A DNA stretch of 64,000 nt from Methanospirillum hungatei JF-1. Lineage in GTDB: Archaea; Halobacteriota; Methanomicrobia; Methanomicrobiales; Methanospirillaceae. The translations under genes and the position numbers were made by a program. This document shows positions 9,608-16,684 of this stretch, in pieces. The stretch spans positions 496,001 through 560,000 of the forward strand of contig NC_007796.1 of the NCBI RefSeq assembly GCF_000013445.1, given 5' to 3'. Under the pieces are notes generated by a model, which was not told the DNA's origin, did not search any database, and was given only the letters and a program-made list of their open reading frames with translations. How positions within the stretch are numbered: position 1 is the first letter of the stretch; each line of letters starts with the position of its first letter.

Positions 9608-11374
9608 TTACTCGATATCCTGATAGTAATACTCACCTTTGCTCTTCTGTTCCCGGTCCAGATATGAATCAGGCTTGTTTATCCGTGGTCTGCCACTCAT
9701 ATCCCTTCTGAATGTCACCCCAAGCTGGGAGAGGAACATATTCATCCCGGTTCTCATATCAAACGGCCCTTTTGCCTCTCCACGGACTCCGGGATCTCCG
9801 TCAAAGACCAGCAGTCGTTCACTGATGATATCAATTACATAAATATCATGATCGATCACAAGGATTGCTGCCTCCTTTCCTTCGACCTGGTTTCTGAATA
9901 TTTTGGTCAGTCTGACCCGCTGCTCTACGTCAAGATGGGCACTCGGCTCATCAAGCACGTACAGGTCAGCGGGCTGGGAGAGACAGGCAGCTATTGCGAC
10001 ACGTTGCAGTTCTCCCCCGGAGAGGGTATTGACCGGAAGCTGGAGAATCGGGCCCAGAGTCAGACCTTCAACAATATCGTGCTGATACTGGGCAGAATCG
10101 AAGGTACGTGCAATCTGCCTGAGGAAGAACTCGACAGTATCTGATGAATCCCCTTTCAGGTACTGCGGTTTATAAGATATCCTGACTGATGTTTCCATCG
10201 AGCCTGAATCCGGTTTTTCAACACCGGCCAGAAGTTTTGCAAAGGTGGACTTTCCAATACCGTTCTGTCCCACAACCCCAATGACTTCACCCGCAAATAT
10301 CTCCCCTGGATGCACCGTCAGGGAGAACCTGTCAAAGGTTCGTTTCATCTCCGGAATAACAAGAAGTGGTTCCCGCTGTGATCCGTCCTTGTGTGCTCTG
10401 ACTTCAAAGGTCACCTGGTAATCACGGAATCTTACATTCTCTTCAGGCAGGAATCCGTCCAGGTACTGATTAATACCTATCCGAACTCCTTTCGGACGAG
10501 TGATGATACCAAAAACGGCCGGTTTTCCATATGCAATATGAACCGTGTCGGCCAGCATATCAAGGATGGCGATATCATGTTCGATAAGAACCACCGGCTT
10601 TTCGGTAGCGAGATCACGTATTGCTGAAGCGGCTGCCATCCGCTGGTAGATATCAAGGTACGGGGTGACTTCATCAAGGAAGTAAAAGTCGGCGTTTCGT
10701 GCAAGTGCTGCAGCAAGAGCAACCCGTTGGAGTTCTCCACCGGAGAGGTTCGAAATCTCCTGGTCAAGGATCTGACGAAGTGAGAGGATGTCCAGGTACT
10801 GATCAAGCGCTCCACGCTCATCGGTTGTTTTCAGGAGATCCCAGACCTTTCCCTGAAAGACCTTGGGGATGACATCAATGTACTGAGGTTTGACGGATGC
10901 CTTGATTGAACCCTTTGAAAGTCGCTGCAGGTAATCAAAGAGTTCGGTACCGGTGTATTTCTTGAGAACTTCTTCCCATTTCACTTCAGTGTCAAAGATC
11001 CCAAGGTTCGGACTGATCTGTCCGGAGAGGATCTTCATGGAGGTGGATTTTCCGATACCGTTGGCTCCGATTACACCGGTCACCTTCCCTTCTATAGGTG
11101 CAGGGAGACCATACAGGACAAAGCTGTTTGGTCCGTACCGGTGTGTCGGATGTTCCAGTTCCTCAGGCAGAGTGATGATATCGATCGCTTCAAAGGGGCA
11201 CTTTTTCACACAGATACCACACCCGACGCAGAGTTCTTCAGAGATAACTGCTTTTCCTTCTTCATCAAGAAGGACTGTTTCGTCTCCGGTGCGGACTCGT
11301 GGACAGTACAGGATACATTCCGTCCCGCATTTGCGTGAATGACAGAGATCTTTATGAACGACAGCTATTCGCAT
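9608..11374 (-). CDS. abce1: ribosome recycling ATPase ABCE1 (Rli1)
   Basis: This 588-residue protein has the complete ABCE1 plan. Two N-terminal 4Fe-4S motifs use Cys11/16/20/24 and Cys49/52/55/59. They are followed by two ABC ATPase domains with Walker A GANGIGKST at 103-111 and GQNGIGKST in the second half, each with an LSGGELQR signature. ABCE1 splits the ribosome after termination or after pelota-dependent rescue, and stays on the small subunit. The gene follows the EMC6-like gene with a 6-nt gap, so the two are probably cotranscribed, and it faces away from rqcH and pelA, whose products act on the same stalled ribosomes. Confidence 0.97.
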   Translation of the reverse strand: MRIAVVHKDLCHSRKCGTECILYCPRVRTGDETVLLDEEGKAVISEELCVGCGICVKKCPFEAIDIITLPEELEHPTHRYGPNSFVLYGLPAPIEGKVTGVIGANGIGKSTSMKILSGQISPNLGIFDTEVKWEEVLKKYTGTELFDYLQRLSKGSIKASVKPQYIDVIPKVFQGKVWDLLKTTDERGALDQYLDILSLRQILDQEISNLSGGELQRVALAAALARNADFYFLDEVTPYLDIYQRMAAASAIRDLATEKPVVLIEHDIAILDMLADTVHIAYGKPAVFGIITRPKGVRIGINQYLDGFLPEENVRFRDYQVTFEVRAHKDGSQREPLLVIPEMKRTFDRFSLTVHPGEIFAGEVIGVVGQNGIGKSTFAKLLAGVEKPDSGSMETSVRISYKPQYLKGDSSDTVEFFLRQIARTFDSAQYQHDIVEGLTLGPILQLPVNTLSGGELQRVAIAACLSQPADLYVLDEPSAHLDVEQRVRLTKIFRNQVEGKEAAILVIDHDIYVIDIISERLLVFDGDPGVRGEAKGPFDMRTGMNMFLSQLGVTFRRDMSGRPRINKPDSYLDREQKSKGEYYYQDIE

Positions 11375-11380
11375 GGGCTA

Positions 11381-11749
11381 TCAGGTTGATATGGTGGTCT
11401 CGGAGAGCAGGATGGTCCAGGTGACATACCAGAAGGCAAAAGTGATAAAACCCTGGTAGAACCAGTCTTTCTTCTCAAGTTTGGTCGTGTCTATCCGGAT
11501 AAGCATGAAAATGTGTTTCTGAATGATTATTGAGGCGATCATCACCAGGATAGGAAAGATAAAAGATTTCCCTGCCCCTGATGTTGCGGTGGCCTGTTCG
11601 GTCAGAAAACAAATGATTCCGGCGATGCACCCGGCACCTACGGCAATGAGGGTGCGCGTGATACGCTTCGTATATTCTGCCGTTTCATCAACGGGGAGAG
11701 GTGCGTGTGTTTCTTCTGCTGGAGTAATCGTGACCGGTTCTTCTGTCAT
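11381..11749 (-). CDS. EMC6-like membrane protein
   Basis: The 122-residue protein has a polar N-terminus and three hydrophobic segments, at about 35-50, 63-80 and 98-117. This fits the archaeal EMC6-like family, relatives of a subunit of the eukaryotic ER membrane protein complex that helps insert membrane proteins. It is the first gene of a two-gene transcript with ABCE1, 6 nt ahead, and is separated by 55 bp from the divergent rqcH. The family call is from topology and gene neighbourhood; function in archaea is not established. Confidence 0.65.
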   Translation of the reverse strand: MTEEPVTITPAEETHAPLPVDETAEYTKRITRTLIAVGAGCIAGIICFLTEQATATSGAGKSFIFPILVMIASIIIQKHIFMLIRIDTTKLEKKDWFYQGFITFAFWYVTWTILLSETTIST

Positions 11750-11804: not shown

Positions 11805-13688
11805 ATGGCGACGATGCAGGGGATGAGTGGACTTGACCTCATCACCGTAACAGACGAGATCACACGGCTCCTCCCCCTCTGGGTGCATAAAGTGTACTTA
11901 GATGAGAACCGTCTCTGTATCTTCAGACTGAATAGTAAAAACCAGGGAAAGGTAAATATCCTTATTGAACCAGGAAGGCGGTTCCATTGTGTATCAACAC
12001 TTCCCGAGATGCCACAGATCCCCCCGGCATTTGCGATGTTTCTCAGAAAATATCTTGCCGGCGGGAGGGTTGACGGTATACGTCAGCAGGGGTTGCAGCG
12101 GACAGTCATAATCGATATCAGAAAGTCCGAGCAGCTGTTCCATCTCATTGTTGAGGTCTTTGATGATGGAAATATCATTCTGTGCGGGGAGGATATGACC
12201 ATCATCCAGCCGCTCACCCGGCACCGGTTTAAGGATCGTGATGTACTCCCCGGGGCTGTATATGTCTTTGGACAGCCGGATGTCAGTTCCATACCCGTAG
12301 AGGAGTTTGCTGAGCGGTTGTCCACCGATGACCGGGATATTGTCAGGTCCCTGGCCGTCGGTTCATTCCTTGGTGGTCGGTATGCAGAATACATCCTCTC
12401 TGTTACCGGGATAGATAAAAAAACGCTTGCAAAAGAGGCTGATGCTCCGGCACTTTATACTGCGATCCATAACCTCCTTGAAAAAGCCAGAACTTCTCCG
12501 ACCCCGGTCCTTGATAAAAACGGATGTCATCCGATTCCTGTCGGTGATGAAAAACCCGGTTCTTTTGACTCCTTTAATGCGGCCCTTGCTGCATTCTACC
12601 CGGTTGCACCTCCGGTAAAGAAACAGGAGGAGAAGATACGGGTATCCCGTGAGGACCGGATCCGTCATCAGCAGGAAGAGGCTATTGTAAAGTTTGAGAA
12701 GAATATCACCCGGAATGAGGAGCTTGCCGCTCTCCTCTATGAAGAGTACGGCTTTGTATCTGAAATTATTACAACACTATCAAAGGCTGCAGAGACTCGT
12801 TCATGGCAGGAAATTGAAGCCATATTAAAGAAGGATACGAGCGGTGCAGGAAAGAAAATAATCAGGATATTCCCTGCAGAGGCAGCAGTTGAACTCGACC
12901 TTGGTCGTCCGGTGAAGGTTTTTGTCCACGAAACCATTGACCAGAATGCCGGCAGGTACTATGATCAGGTCAAAAAGTTCAAGAAGAAACTTGCCGGGGC
13001 AAAAGCGGCTATGGAACGTGAGGTGCAGCAGGCACGAACCAGGAAAGTGCAATACCAGCGGCCGAAGAAGCGGTGGTTTGACCGGTTCAGATGGTTTTAT
13101 ACATCAGATCAGGTTCTGGTCATTGGCGGCCGGGATGCCGGGCAGAATGAAGAACTGATCAGGAAGTACTTGGAGGGTGGTGACACCTTTGTCCATGCTG
13201 ATGTTCATGGAGCCAGTGTGGTTGTAGTAAAGGGAAAAACGAAAGATATGGATGAGGTGGCACGGTTTGCAGCGGCATATTCAGGTGCATGGCGGGCCGG
13301 GTTTGCATCCGCTGATGTGTATGCGGCACGGCCTGATCAGGTATCAAAGACTGCAGAGTCAGGTGAATACCTCTCCAGAGGTTCGTTCGTGGTCAGGGGA
13401 GAACGACAATGGTTCCACGATGTCCCGCTTGAGGTAGTTATCGGCCTTCAGAAGGCCCCCCAGACCCGGATTCTCGGAGGTCCGGCATCAGCGGTTACAA
13501 AATCCTGTGACCTTTTCGTGACCCTTCGTCCGGGAACATTTGAGCCCAATGATATCGCAAAAAAGGTTGTTCGTGCTCTTCGTGAGAAACTATCTGCAGA
13601 TGAACAGAAGGCACTTAAATTTGCGCTCAATACCGAAGCGGTCGCTGCTTTTGTCCCGCCCGGAGGATCTGATCTGGTGGAAGGATGA
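11805..13688 (+). CDS. rqcH: RqcH/NEMF/Rqc2-type ribosome quality control protein
   Basis: The 627-residue protein has the NFACT layout. The N-terminal NFACT-N domain (about 1-240) includes MSGLDL with Asp11. Then come helix-hairpin-helix and coiled-coil regions (about 280-410) and an NFACT-R domain (about 415-530) starting RPKKRWFDRFRWFYTSD. Relatives bind the large subunit carrying a stuck nascent chain and recruit tRNA to add C-terminal tails. In the motif where yeast Rqc2 and bacterial RqcH have Asp-Arg, this protein reads GLQR, giving Gln98-Arg99. The stop overlaps the start of pelA (ATGA at 13685), so the two are translationally coupled. The start could also be Met4 or Met7. Confidence 0.93.
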   Translation: MATMQGMSGLDLITVTDEITRLLPLWVHKVYLDENRLCIFRLNSKNQGKVNILIEPGRRFHCVSTLPEMPQIPPAFAMFLRKYLAGGRVDGIRQQGLQRTVIIDIRKSEQLFHLIVEVFDDGNIILCGEDMTIIQPLTRHRFKDRDVLPGAVYVFGQPDVSSIPVEEFAERLSTDDRDIVRSLAVGSFLGGRYAEYILSVTGIDKKTLAKEADAPALYTAIHNLLEKARTSPTPVLDKNGCHPIPVGDEKPGSFDSFNAALAAFYPVAPPVKKQEEKIRVSREDRIRHQQEEAIVKFEKNITRNEELAALLYEEYGFVSEIITTLSKAAETRSWQEIEAILKKDTSGAGKKIIRIFPAEAAVELDLGRPVKVFVHETIDQNAGRYYDQVKKFKKKLAGAKAAMEREVQQARTRKVQYQRPKKRWFDRFRWFYTSDQVLVIGGRDAGQNEELIRKYLEGGDTFVHADVHGASVVVVKGKTKDMDEVARFAAAYSGAWRAGFASADVYAARPDQVSKTAESGEYLSRGSFVVRGERQWFHDVPLEVVIGLQKAPQTRILGGPASAVTKSCDLFVTLRPGTFEPNDIAKKVVRALREKLSADEQKALKFALNTEAVAAFVPPGGSDLVEG

Positions 13689-14710
13689 AAGCAGAAATAG
13701 AGGAACTCCAACGTTCATTTGGTGAAATTCGTCTTTTTCCTGAGAATAGTGATGACCTCTGGCACCTCCACAACCTCATTACACCCGGCTCTCTCGTCTA
13801 TGCAACCACGCTCCGGAGTGTTGAAGGATCGCAGGATAAGATACGTCCGGAAAAGCAGGAAAAGCGACCGGTCCGTCTTGGTATCAGGGTGGAGGATGTC
13901 GAGTTTCATGAATATTCAATACGGCTTCGGGTTTTTGGAACCATTGAATCAGGGGTGGATATCGGCTCTCATCACACCTTAAACCTCGAACCCGGATATG
14001 AGATCTCGGTTATCAAATCATGGTCAGGAAGTGATCTTGAACGGATTGATCGGGCGATAAAAGGGTCGACATCAGAGGCGATTCATATTCTTACCGTTGA
14101 GGAGGGGGAAGCAGAACTCTACCGGGTGCAGAGTTATGGTCCAAAGCAGGTCTGGTCACTTGCTGCTGGAAGCGGGAAGACAGCGGAGGTGAGCAGCAGG
14201 GAAGAGTTTTCAGAGGCTGTTGTGTCACAGGTGTCACAGCTCACCGGACCACTGGTCATTGCAGGACCTGGGTTTGTAAAAGAAGAGATTATCGCGAAAT
14301 TCAAGCGGAAAAATCCTTCCCGTTCTGCACCCCTGGTCATTGGGGATACCCGGGCCGGAGGAAGAAGGGCGGTGCAGGAGGTCATCGGCCAGGGTATCCT
14401 TGAAAAACTGAACGGGGATCTGCAGCTGGCACGGGAAGTAACCTGCCTTGATGAACTTATGCGGCGGATTGGTAAAGATGAGCCGGTAGCGTATGGAATC
14501 GATGCGGTCAGGGATGCAACCGGATGTGGAGCGGTTCAGACCCTCATGGTGGTGGATACCCTTCTTCGGGATCCTGATGCAGCAGATCTTATCAGACAAG
14601 CAGAGGCGATGCGTTCTGAAGTAGTCATCTTCTCTTCACGGTTTGAACCTGGTGAGCGACTTGCCGGTCTTGGTGGGATAGCAGCCCTTCTCAGGTATTC
14701 AATAGCCTGA
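13685..14710 (+). CDS. pelA: mRNA surveillance protein pelota (Dom34)
   Basis: The 341-residue protein has the three pelota domains: an N-terminal Sm-like domain (to about 130), a central eRF1_2-like domain lacking the GGQ peptide-release motif, and a C-terminal eRF1_3 domain. Typical N-terminal features are WHLHNLITPGSLVYATT and the DVEFHEYSIRLRVFGTI strand pair. Pelota enters the A site of stalled ribosomes, and with aEF1A and ABCE1 dissociates them. It overlaps rqcH by 4 nt. It lies opposite ABCE1 across a shared promoter interval, putting ribosome splitting and nascent-chain tailing factors in one locus. Confidence 0.96.
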   Translation: MKAEIEELQRSFGEIRLFPENSDDLWHLHNLITPGSLVYATTLRSVEGSQDKIRPEKQEKRPVRLGIRVEDVEFHEYSIRLRVFGTIESGVDIGSHHTLNLEPGYEISVIKSWSGSDLERIDRAIKGSTSEAIHILTVEEGEAELYRVQSYGPKQVWSLAAGSGKTAEVSSREEFSEAVVSQVSQLTGPLVIAGPGFVKEEIIAKFKRKNPSRSAPLVIGDTRAGGRRAVQEVIGQGILEKLNGDLQLAREVTCLDELMRRIGKDEPVAYGIDAVRDATGCGAVQTLMVVDTLLRDPDAADLIRQAEAMRSEVVIFSSRFEPGERLAGLGGIAALLRYSIA

Positions 14711-14924: not shown

Positions 14925-16684
14925 GAGGGTGTTGCACCAATGATCAATATCATGCAGGATCACAAATGATCGATCTCTACCCCTTAAGCTATCAACCAAA
15001 ATAGACTAATTGATGTATGAACCTGCATGTATCAATTCCCACTTTACATACTGTGTTTGCAAAAATATAGGAAAAACCTGAACCTCTTGACGGTTTTATA
15101 ATATTCGTAGCAAATTCTTTAATTTTAACTATACCCTCAAATCTGATAAGTTTTTTTATATTATGCACTAATGCAGCTAAAAAGAATTCTCCCTCGCAAT
15201 TCTCTTTCCCTTTTTGAGAGAAACTCCTAAACCTCATATTATGTTTCATATTACCAAAAACTGGTTCGACCATGTATTTTCGTTTTCGATATAACTCTCT
15301 ACCAGTGGGGGATTTCACACGTACTTCCATAACTCGTTTACAAATTTCCTGAGTTGTTGCTTGTTTCTCTCTGTTCATAAAAGATTGCCAAACAAACGTC
15401 CCGATACTTTGCAATTCCGGAAATGTGATTATTTCTCCCATACAAATCGCCCGACATATCATTTCCATTCGTGAGATATACCCATCATTATCTGAATATT
15501 CTGGAATTTTTCTTTCTTTAGAAGGAGGGATGATGAGTTGAATGCCATAATCCAATTCTGCTAAAGAATTCGGGTATGAGAAATAACCTGCATCAGATAG
15601 TAGTATATTAGGCGAAATTGATGGATGAATACCCGTAAAAAGGTCTTCGAGTTCATTTAGCATAGGTATTAATAATTTTTTATCGTTTTGCTCATCTGAT
15701 ATCATTGCAGCGAGGATAAATTGATTTTCAGAAACGATAATCTGCCCATTATACCCTTGAATCCAGCCATTGGTGGTTGACATTATCTGACTTTCAGGAT
15801 CAGTGAGATTTACTTTTGAATCTGAAGATGGCTCTTTTTTAGGCTCTAAAGGCTTTCTACCTCGTTTCTTTTTACCCGATTCTAATTCTTCTTTTTCGCG
15901 GTCCAGAATCTTTTCTTCTTGTTTTTTAGATTCGATATCATGTCGTTCAATTAATTTCTCTTTAGCCCGATTAAGAACTTCCTTTCGTTTTTCTTTTGTT
16001 GAAAGATGCTCAGGTAGTCGGTTAATCTCCATATCCTGAATATTTATATCATCGTTTTCTAACTCATCAATTTCCTGTGATTCATCAAAAAGCCGACCTA
16101 GCTCTGCTTCAAGGTATTTTAATTTTTTATTGGCTGATAAAGAGGCATTACAGCCAAATTTTGATCCATCGAGGGCTAGGACACCGATTCTTGCTATCCC
16201 GGATTCTACGATAATTTGAGATAATTGTTTAAAAAGGGATTTGATTTCTTTTGAATTATTCTTCTTGAAACGATAGATCGTTGTATGGTCAGGTGTAAGA
16301 TTATTGGCGACGATCCGATATCCAATATCATAATGGCAGCACATCTCAATTTTTCTGCTAGATTTTTCTCCACGAATCATTGAATAAATTATTATTCCAA
16401 GCATTGAACGAGGATCAAAAAAGGCAGAACCGCGACCATCGTCACGATATTTATTAATAAATGGACTAATATCGAGAATCGAAAGAATTTCTAATATGCC
16501 ATAAGTAATATCATTTTCAGATAGCCAGTCCATCGCATTGACAGGGAGTAAAAATTGTTGTTCATTACCATATCCTCTAATCATGTTATAGCGATGAGAC
16601 ATATAATATATTGATCTTAATAATATATATAATTAAGCTTTAATAATTTATATTAAGCTTTTTTTGTGTTTGTGCAACAGCCTC
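14925..16684 (-). mobile_element. IS1182-like insertion sequence, complete copy
   Basis: The element is 1760 bp. Its ends read GAGGGTGTTGCACCA on the left and, in reverse complement, GAGGCTGTTGCACAA on the right, agreeing at 13 of 15 positions. It is flanked by a 4-bp direct repeat GCAA (14921-14924 and 16685-16688), and it carries one transposase gene on the minus strand. Length, single long transposase and 4-bp duplication fit the IS1182 family. The same element is found again from 63131, and the shared parts I compared are identical. Confidence 0.93.
14992..16602 (-). CDS. IS1182-like transposase
   Basis: The 536-residue protein begins with the DUF772-type N-terminal region, including GSAFFDPRSMLGIIIYSM and PDHTTIYRFKK. 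A DDE catalytic domain follows, with Asp in VLALDGSKFG, Asp in ILLSDAGYFS and Glu in MVEPVFGNMKHN. A highly charged insertion (about residues 175-270, rich in Glu and Lys) separates the first and second Asp, as is usual in this family. The frame is intact, so the element is probably active. It is transcribed against the gene it interrupts. Confidence 0.93.
   Translation of the reverse strand: MSHRYNMIRGYGNEQQFLLPVNAMDWLSENDITYGILEILSILDISPFINKYRDDGRGSAFFDPRSMLGIIIYSMIRGEKSSRKIEMCCHYDIGYRIVANNLTPDHTTIYRFKKNNSKEIKSLFKQLSQIIVESGIARIGVLALDGSKFGCNASLSANKKLKYLEAELGRLFDESQEIDELENDDINIQDMEINRLPEHLSTKEKRKEVLNRAKEKLIERHDIESKKQEEKILDREKEELESGKKKRGRKPLEPKKEPSSDSKVNLTDPESQIMSTTNGWIQGYNGQIIVSENQFILAAMISDEQNDKKLLIPMLNELEDLFTGIHPSISPNILLSDAGYFSYPNSLAELDYGIQLIIPPSKERKIPEYSDNDGYISRMEMICRAICMGEIITFPELQSIGTFVWQSFMNREKQATTQEICKRVMEVRVKSPTGRELYRKRKYMVEPVFGNMKHNMRFRSFSQKGKENCEGEFFLAALVHNIKKLIRFEGIVKIKEFATNIIKPSRGSGFSYIFANTVCKVGIDTCRFIHQLVYFG

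Follow-up and report, generated by a model that had tools for sequence, protein, structure and literature searches.

Replacement of the tailing aspartate of RqcH across the archaeal order Methanomicrobiales

The RqcH protein of Methanospirillum hungatei JF-1 carries Gln98 in place of the tailing Asp of the conserved Asp-Arg pair, and we find that this Asp is missing throughout the order Methanomicrobiales as sampled here. Among the 145 RqcH sequences of the order, residue 98 is Glu in 77, Gln in 63, Ser in 5 and Asp in none, while outside the order 264 of 269 archaeal sequences hold Asp and the other 5 hold Glu. Judged by these sequences, the order has a new natural variant of a residue that has been described as universally conserved. 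We consider it most likely that RqcH of these archaea would still engage tRNA on the 50S subunit with a retuned anticodon contact, tailing being supported, and we give this reading a probability of about 0.5.

The rqcH gene occupies positions 11805-13688 on the + strand of the window, the 64-kb stretch of M. hungatei DNA that we analyzed, and encodes a 627-aa protein of the NEMF/Rqc2 family. The open reading frame scores well over the Pfam cut-offs for both diagnostic domains. NFACT_N (PF05833; 152.6 bits against a cut-off of 31) spans residues 9-408, so the NFACT-N and middle domains are present, and NFACT-R_1 (PF05670; 109.8 bits against 29.8) spans residues 428-532, which accounts for the RNA-binding NFACT-R domain. 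The AlphaFold2 model of the protein (mean pLDDT 90.9, pTM 0.48) places residue 98 in the loop between two strands formed by residues 88-94 and 100-107. The model has the fold of known NFACT members. It matched 5h3x with a Z score of 26.1 (246 aligned residues, rmsd 2.8), and the further fold matches were 9gy4_Z (NEMF), 8aaf_a (yeast Rqc2), and 7aqc_R and 7as8_0 (B. subtilis RqcH). The large rmsd values to 9gy4_Z (Z 25.8, 597 aligned, rmsd 16.3) and to 7aqc_R (Z 25.8, 367 aligned, rmsd 23.0) indicate that the domains are placed differently. By domains, sequence and fold, the M. hungatei protein belongs to the NEMF/Rqc2/RqcH (NFACT) family. We withhold the label of a proven tail-synthesising RqcH, because the Asp of the pair was looked for and is absent. 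The protein has a single match in its own genome, with a frame that is open and without stops; therefore no second, Asp-bearing copy compensates.

Of the solved structures compared by sequence, mammalian NEMF (9gy4, 3j92) was the top match, with E 3.9e-43; its R97 corresponds to R99 of M. hungatei, whereas its D96 faces the Gln. Yeast Rqc2/Tae2 (8aaf), the partner of Ltn1, has homologous NFACT-N and NFACT-R domains. Its D9 and R99 correspond to D11 and R99 of M. hungatei, whereas its D98 is again replaced by Gln. B. subtilis RqcH (7aqc, 7as8; DR variant 7ope), which ranked near the top in the Foldseek and VIA-align comparisons, has the NFACT-N/middle and NFACT-R domains and the Arg of the pair in common with the M. 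hungatei protein, but holds D97 where the latter has Gln98. The bacterial conservation of the pair is taken from solved structures and papers.

Reading the codons, we confirmed the Gln98-Arg99 assignment (in GLQR) that the earlier note had made at the tailing site. Gln98 is encoded by CAG at 12096-12098 (+) and Arg99 by CGG at 12099-12101 (+). The interval given there, 12095-12101, began one base early, within the TTG codon of Leu97 (12093-12095), although the substitution itself was right. phmmer comparisons with solved structures pair Gln98 with an Asp in each case, within GVDR in NEMF, QDR in yeast Rqc2, GLDR in B. subtilis RqcH and GNDR in S. aureus 3doa, and these structure-sequence alignments are gap-free from Gln94 (CAG, 12084-12086, +), the invariant anchor, to Arg99. 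The first conserved Asp, the D9 of yeast, is Asp11 (GAC, 11835-11837, +) in the motif SGLDL, and it is kept, as the note had said. We looked for an Asp-Arg pair that the alignment might place elsewhere and found none; the DR dipeptides of the protein lie at 144, 176, 284 and 426 only, away from the pair site.

Published work ties the pair to tailing. In B. subtilis, the 97-DR-98 pair contacts anticodon base G35. The D97A/R98A variant loses tRNA-Ala selection with a rise in the tRNA-Lys signal, and its cryo-EM structure shows NFACT-N swung off the anticodon; the authors add that the G35 contact and the conformations alone are unlikely to explain specificity (PMC8373112). In yeast, D98Y makes no CAT tails and yet binds ribosomes and supports Ltn1 (PMC4805532), while D98A is deficient in CAT tailing and only partly restores ubiquitination in extracts (PMC5562442). 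For NEMF, D96 and R97 are described as catalytic and conserved universally; a yeast tailing mutant is described with D9, D98 and R99 altered together, and both mouse R86S and yeast R88S perturb tailing (PMC7494853). In yeast, single changes at D98 suffice to stop tailing; the bacterial case for the pair, in the work cited here, is a double mutant. The origin of RqcH/Rqc2/NEMF has been placed in the last universal ancestor (PMC8012679, PMC6514570). Among the best 20 matches per search in the open-licence PubMed Central literature we found no tailing assay in any archaeon. Nor did a search of the same literature for D98E, D98N or D98Q in Rqc2 list any paper that tested them, none of those listed including Rqc2.

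The order was delimited as relatives grouped by kinship, which we take to be Methanomicrobiales, and the 145 sequences come from as many genomes, out of 216 in which a match was found, and represent all 39 genera with one. Within Methanospirillum, Gln is present in all 10 sequences that cover the site, and one fragment lacks the site. The refuting possibility raised earlier, a Gln common to all Methanomicrobiales together with proven tailing, does not describe the order, in which Glu is the most frequent residue. The change noted for one protein is a real substitution, and it turns out to be order-wide and old, with three replacements. Outside the order, the comparison consists mostly of Methanosarcinales, Halobacteria and Archaeoglobales. 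Asp98 was found in all 104 genomes read from the same phylum (104 of 123 genomes). A second outside set of 80 loci, a few of them from other phyla, gave Asp98 in 78 of the 79 that hold the site; L279 has Glu and L258 was unreadable. Three further phylum samples were mostly limited to the best 30 loci each. In the first, 79 genomes had a match and 30 of them were covered; the other two comprised 29 new loci plus two of genome G235 for 57 genomes, and the listed loci of 20 genomes. Because sampling by best score is biased, we also read 20 weak-scoring loci, 18 from the 57-genome sample and 2 from the 79-genome sample; 18 of them have Asp98 and 2 have Glu. Repeats (L291-L294), loci without the site (L010, L258, L376), and L297 and L298, which had no readable relative, were left out, and 13 outside sequences whose N-terminal halves were identical to others were also removed, which reduced 262 sequences to 249. 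In this non-identical set, 246 sequences hold Asp98 and 3 hold Glu. Set against 246/249 plus 18/20 outside, the count of 0/145 in the order is far beyond what chance would be expected to give in such samples.

The neighboring landmarks behave differently from residue 98. Arg99 is present in 145/145 sequences of the order, in 249/249 outside and in 20/20 weak-scoring loci; for Gln94 the corresponding figures are 145/145, 249/249 and 19/20, and for D11 they are 145/145, 243/249 and 17/20. Other archaeal RqcH proteins thus have R99 and Q94 in common with the order and differ from it in that nearly all of them have Asp98 instead of Gln, Glu or Ser.

Glu is tolerated elsewhere, as the 5 of 269 outside sequences indicate, and these cases are at least two separate ones on the tree. 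All five (L279, L340, L343, L429 and L434) come from the phylum sample around L279, a locus whose record is titled Thermoplasmatota. Three loci of that sample (L420, L425 and L426) have Ala in place of D11 and keep the DR pair. Genome G235 has two NFACT_N genes over the cut-off (L292 and L296), one with Glu and one with Asp at the site; because the record is a MAG, this may reflect contamination.

The rqcH gene is encoded together with Pelota in a ribosome-rescue locus. The Pelota gene (aPelota/Dom34; 13685-14710, +) overlaps the rqcH reading frame by 4 bases. It is named from its domains, eRF1_1 and eRF1_3; domains 1 and 3 match, while the middle eRF1 domain had no Pfam match at E 0.001. Divergent from rqcH lies an EMC6-arch gene (11381-11749, -; PF19094, 97.2 bits), and ABCE1 (RLI), the ribosome-recycling ATPase, is encoded at 9608-11374 (-), its name likewise resting on domains (Fer4_RLI and two ABC_tran stretches). 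Checking 106 loci of the order, we found Pelota directly downstream of rqcH in all 102 that had room for it; the later 60 loci were left out of this check. Outside, the adjacency was seen in 47 of 171 loci, mostly from the rest of the phylum, and in 14 of 78 elsewhere, counts that may be too low because a single Methanospirillum Pelota was the query and the flanks were short; both outside groups include repeats, and the first also a few loci of other phyla. Downstream of Pelota, a 536-aa reading frame (14992-16602, -) is presumably the DDE transposase of an insertion sequence, which it resembles. The genetic code itself dictates which base stands in the middle of the tRNA-Ala anticodon; the only tRNA gene that ARAGORN reported in the window is one for tRNA-Val.

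To place the loss of Asp, we read residue 98 on a tree from which columns 95-100 had been excluded, in which 50 rows of the order form one side of a branch with SH-aLRT 100. On the 76-row subtree of the order, residue 98 changes 12 times, only among Glu, Gln and Ser, and there is no return to Asp. Glu is the cheapest state at the base of the order, requiring 12 changes, whereas Gln, Ser or Asp there would each require 14. The loss of Asp thus appears to map to the base of the order, with Glu as the probable ancestral residue, and about 12 later switches among Glu, Gln and Ser would have followed. On the same subtree, with 32.9 substitutions per column, residues 11, 94 and 99 show no change at all. 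The variability of residue 98 is middling, as 239 of 614 columns change less and the median is 16 changes. The codons at the site are CAG 40, GAG 37, GAA 22 and CAA 6 in the first 105 sequences of the order; outside, they are GAC in 173 and GAT in 73 of 249.

We also asked which other residues the order has lost. Among 52 positions conserved at 95% or more outside, 42 are kept at that level in the order, 6 partly, and 4 are lost, namely K4, F97 and D98 in NFACT-N and P471 in NFACT-R. The share of lost positions in NFACT-N (3/15) against that elsewhere (1/37) is not significant (Fisher p 0.067). K4 (11814-11816), F97 (12093-12095) and P471 (13215-13217) are conserved outside and replaced in nearly all of the order; the N-terminal Lys at position 4 is present in 238/249 outside sequences versus 10/145 in the order. 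B. subtilis also has Leu at position 97 (GLDR), so the change of F97 need not matter, and we set it aside as evidence. Position 88, the equivalent of yeast R88 and mouse R86 as counted from the sequence alignment, is Arg or Lys in 144/145 sequences of the order. Outside, it is Arg in 133, Asp in 40, Ile in 18, Asn in 12 and Lys in 10 of 249, and because these residues are mixed, its support for retained tailing is weak. Three candidate observations were not kept. Strict restriction of the site to Glu or Gln, seen in 105 sequences, was dropped when denser sampling of genera brought Ser in 5 sequences of two genera; a list of positions covarying with Glu versus Gln within the order was set aside since it was uncorrected for relatedness; and a nucleotide pattern designed to find the HAD-x-HGA motif, which matched 35/106 loci of the order and 7/104 others, was abandoned.

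We propose the following course of events. The Asp of the anticodon-reading hairpin of NFACT-N would have become Glu in the ancestor of Methanomicrobiales, and Glu would then have given way to Gln or Ser in several later branches. RqcH would still bind the 50S-peptidyl-tRNA complex, engage the incoming tRNA through the same hairpin with its invariant Arg99, and support tailing. The middle anticodon base would be contacted by Arg99, by the longer or neutral side chain at residue 98, or by both, the Asp carboxylate being dispensable. Arg99, Gln94, Asp11, the fold and the Pelota neighborhood are unchanged, a pattern that points to continued use of the tRNA-facing side of NFACT-N; and since Glu, Gln and even Ser take one another's place, a carboxylate as such would not seem to be required. 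Taking these two points together, we hold retained tRNA engagement to be the most likely. Several observations speak against a retuned contact. The yeast substitutions D98A and D98Y abolish CAT tailing, and the B. subtilis double variant loses tRNA-Ala selection. It is hard to see how Ser, in 5 sequences, could make an equivalent contact. Constraint on residue 98 within the order is no more than moderate, the N-terminal Lys is lost as well, and R99 could be kept for another reason. The missing report of archaeal tailing in the open-licence literature also counts against it.

The contrary view is that, after the ancestral loss of Asp, the whole order either dropped template-free alanine tailing, with RqcH as a rescue clamp, or rewrote the tRNA that is recruited; we rate this pair of outcomes, taken together, at somewhat below even odds. 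The first of the two, which the earlier note had raised for this protein, is the main rival, possible though rather unlikely. Once Pelota/ABCE1 had split the ribosome, RqcH would then sit as a clamp or sensor on the 50S subunit with its blocking peptidyl-tRNA, and the chain would be removed untailed. The complete absence of Asp in the order agrees with such a loss, as do the repeated loss of charge (Gln 63, Ser 5) and the middling constraint on the site, and the yeast D98Y phenotype implies that tailing is separable from ribosome binding and Ltn1 support. Against it, D11, R99 and Q94 are invariant in the order, although D9, D98 and R99 are the very residues altered in the yeast tailing mutant; Glu is the nearest chemical replacement as well as the inferred first state; and the partial ubiquitination with D98A implies that a clamp alone may not be neutral.

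The second outcome, a changed tail code, we regard as improbable. A hairpin with Glu, Gln or Ser at residue 98 would accept another middle anticodon base or several tRNAs, and the tails would have a non-alanine composition. Such a shift finds a precedent in the B. subtilis pair, whose loss removes the preference for tRNA-Ala and raises the tRNA-Lys signal, and K4 and F97, conserved residues nearby, are altered in the same order. However, the authors of that work doubt that the G35 contact alone accounts for specificity, the change of F97 has its counterpart in B. subtilis, and the swapping of Glu, Gln and Ser within the order (12 changes) is unlike one new code. Finally, we considered a misalignment, a sequencing error or a broken copy, with the Asp sitting elsewhere or the gene decaying, since the earlier note had aligned the site by motif. 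Nothing was found in its favor, and it has next to no chance of being the explanation, given that no gap separates the invariant Q94 and R99, that all 10 Methanospirillum sequences with the site have Gln and none of the 145 genomes has Asp, and that the M. hungatei gene is an open frame without stops. The in-frame TGA reported for two other genomes (G105 and G109) is taken to be the normal stop, the match there reaching residue 627.

In summary, we favor retained tRNA engagement with a retuned contact, and the statement that the tailing Asp is universally conserved is corrected by Methanomicrobiales. The change of this Asp across a whole clade, beside an unchanged Arg, offers a natural test of whether tailing and ribosome rescue can be uncoupled, and the variant also bears on what the Asp reads in the anticodon. 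These archaea may read tRNA differently, or may have given up tailing.
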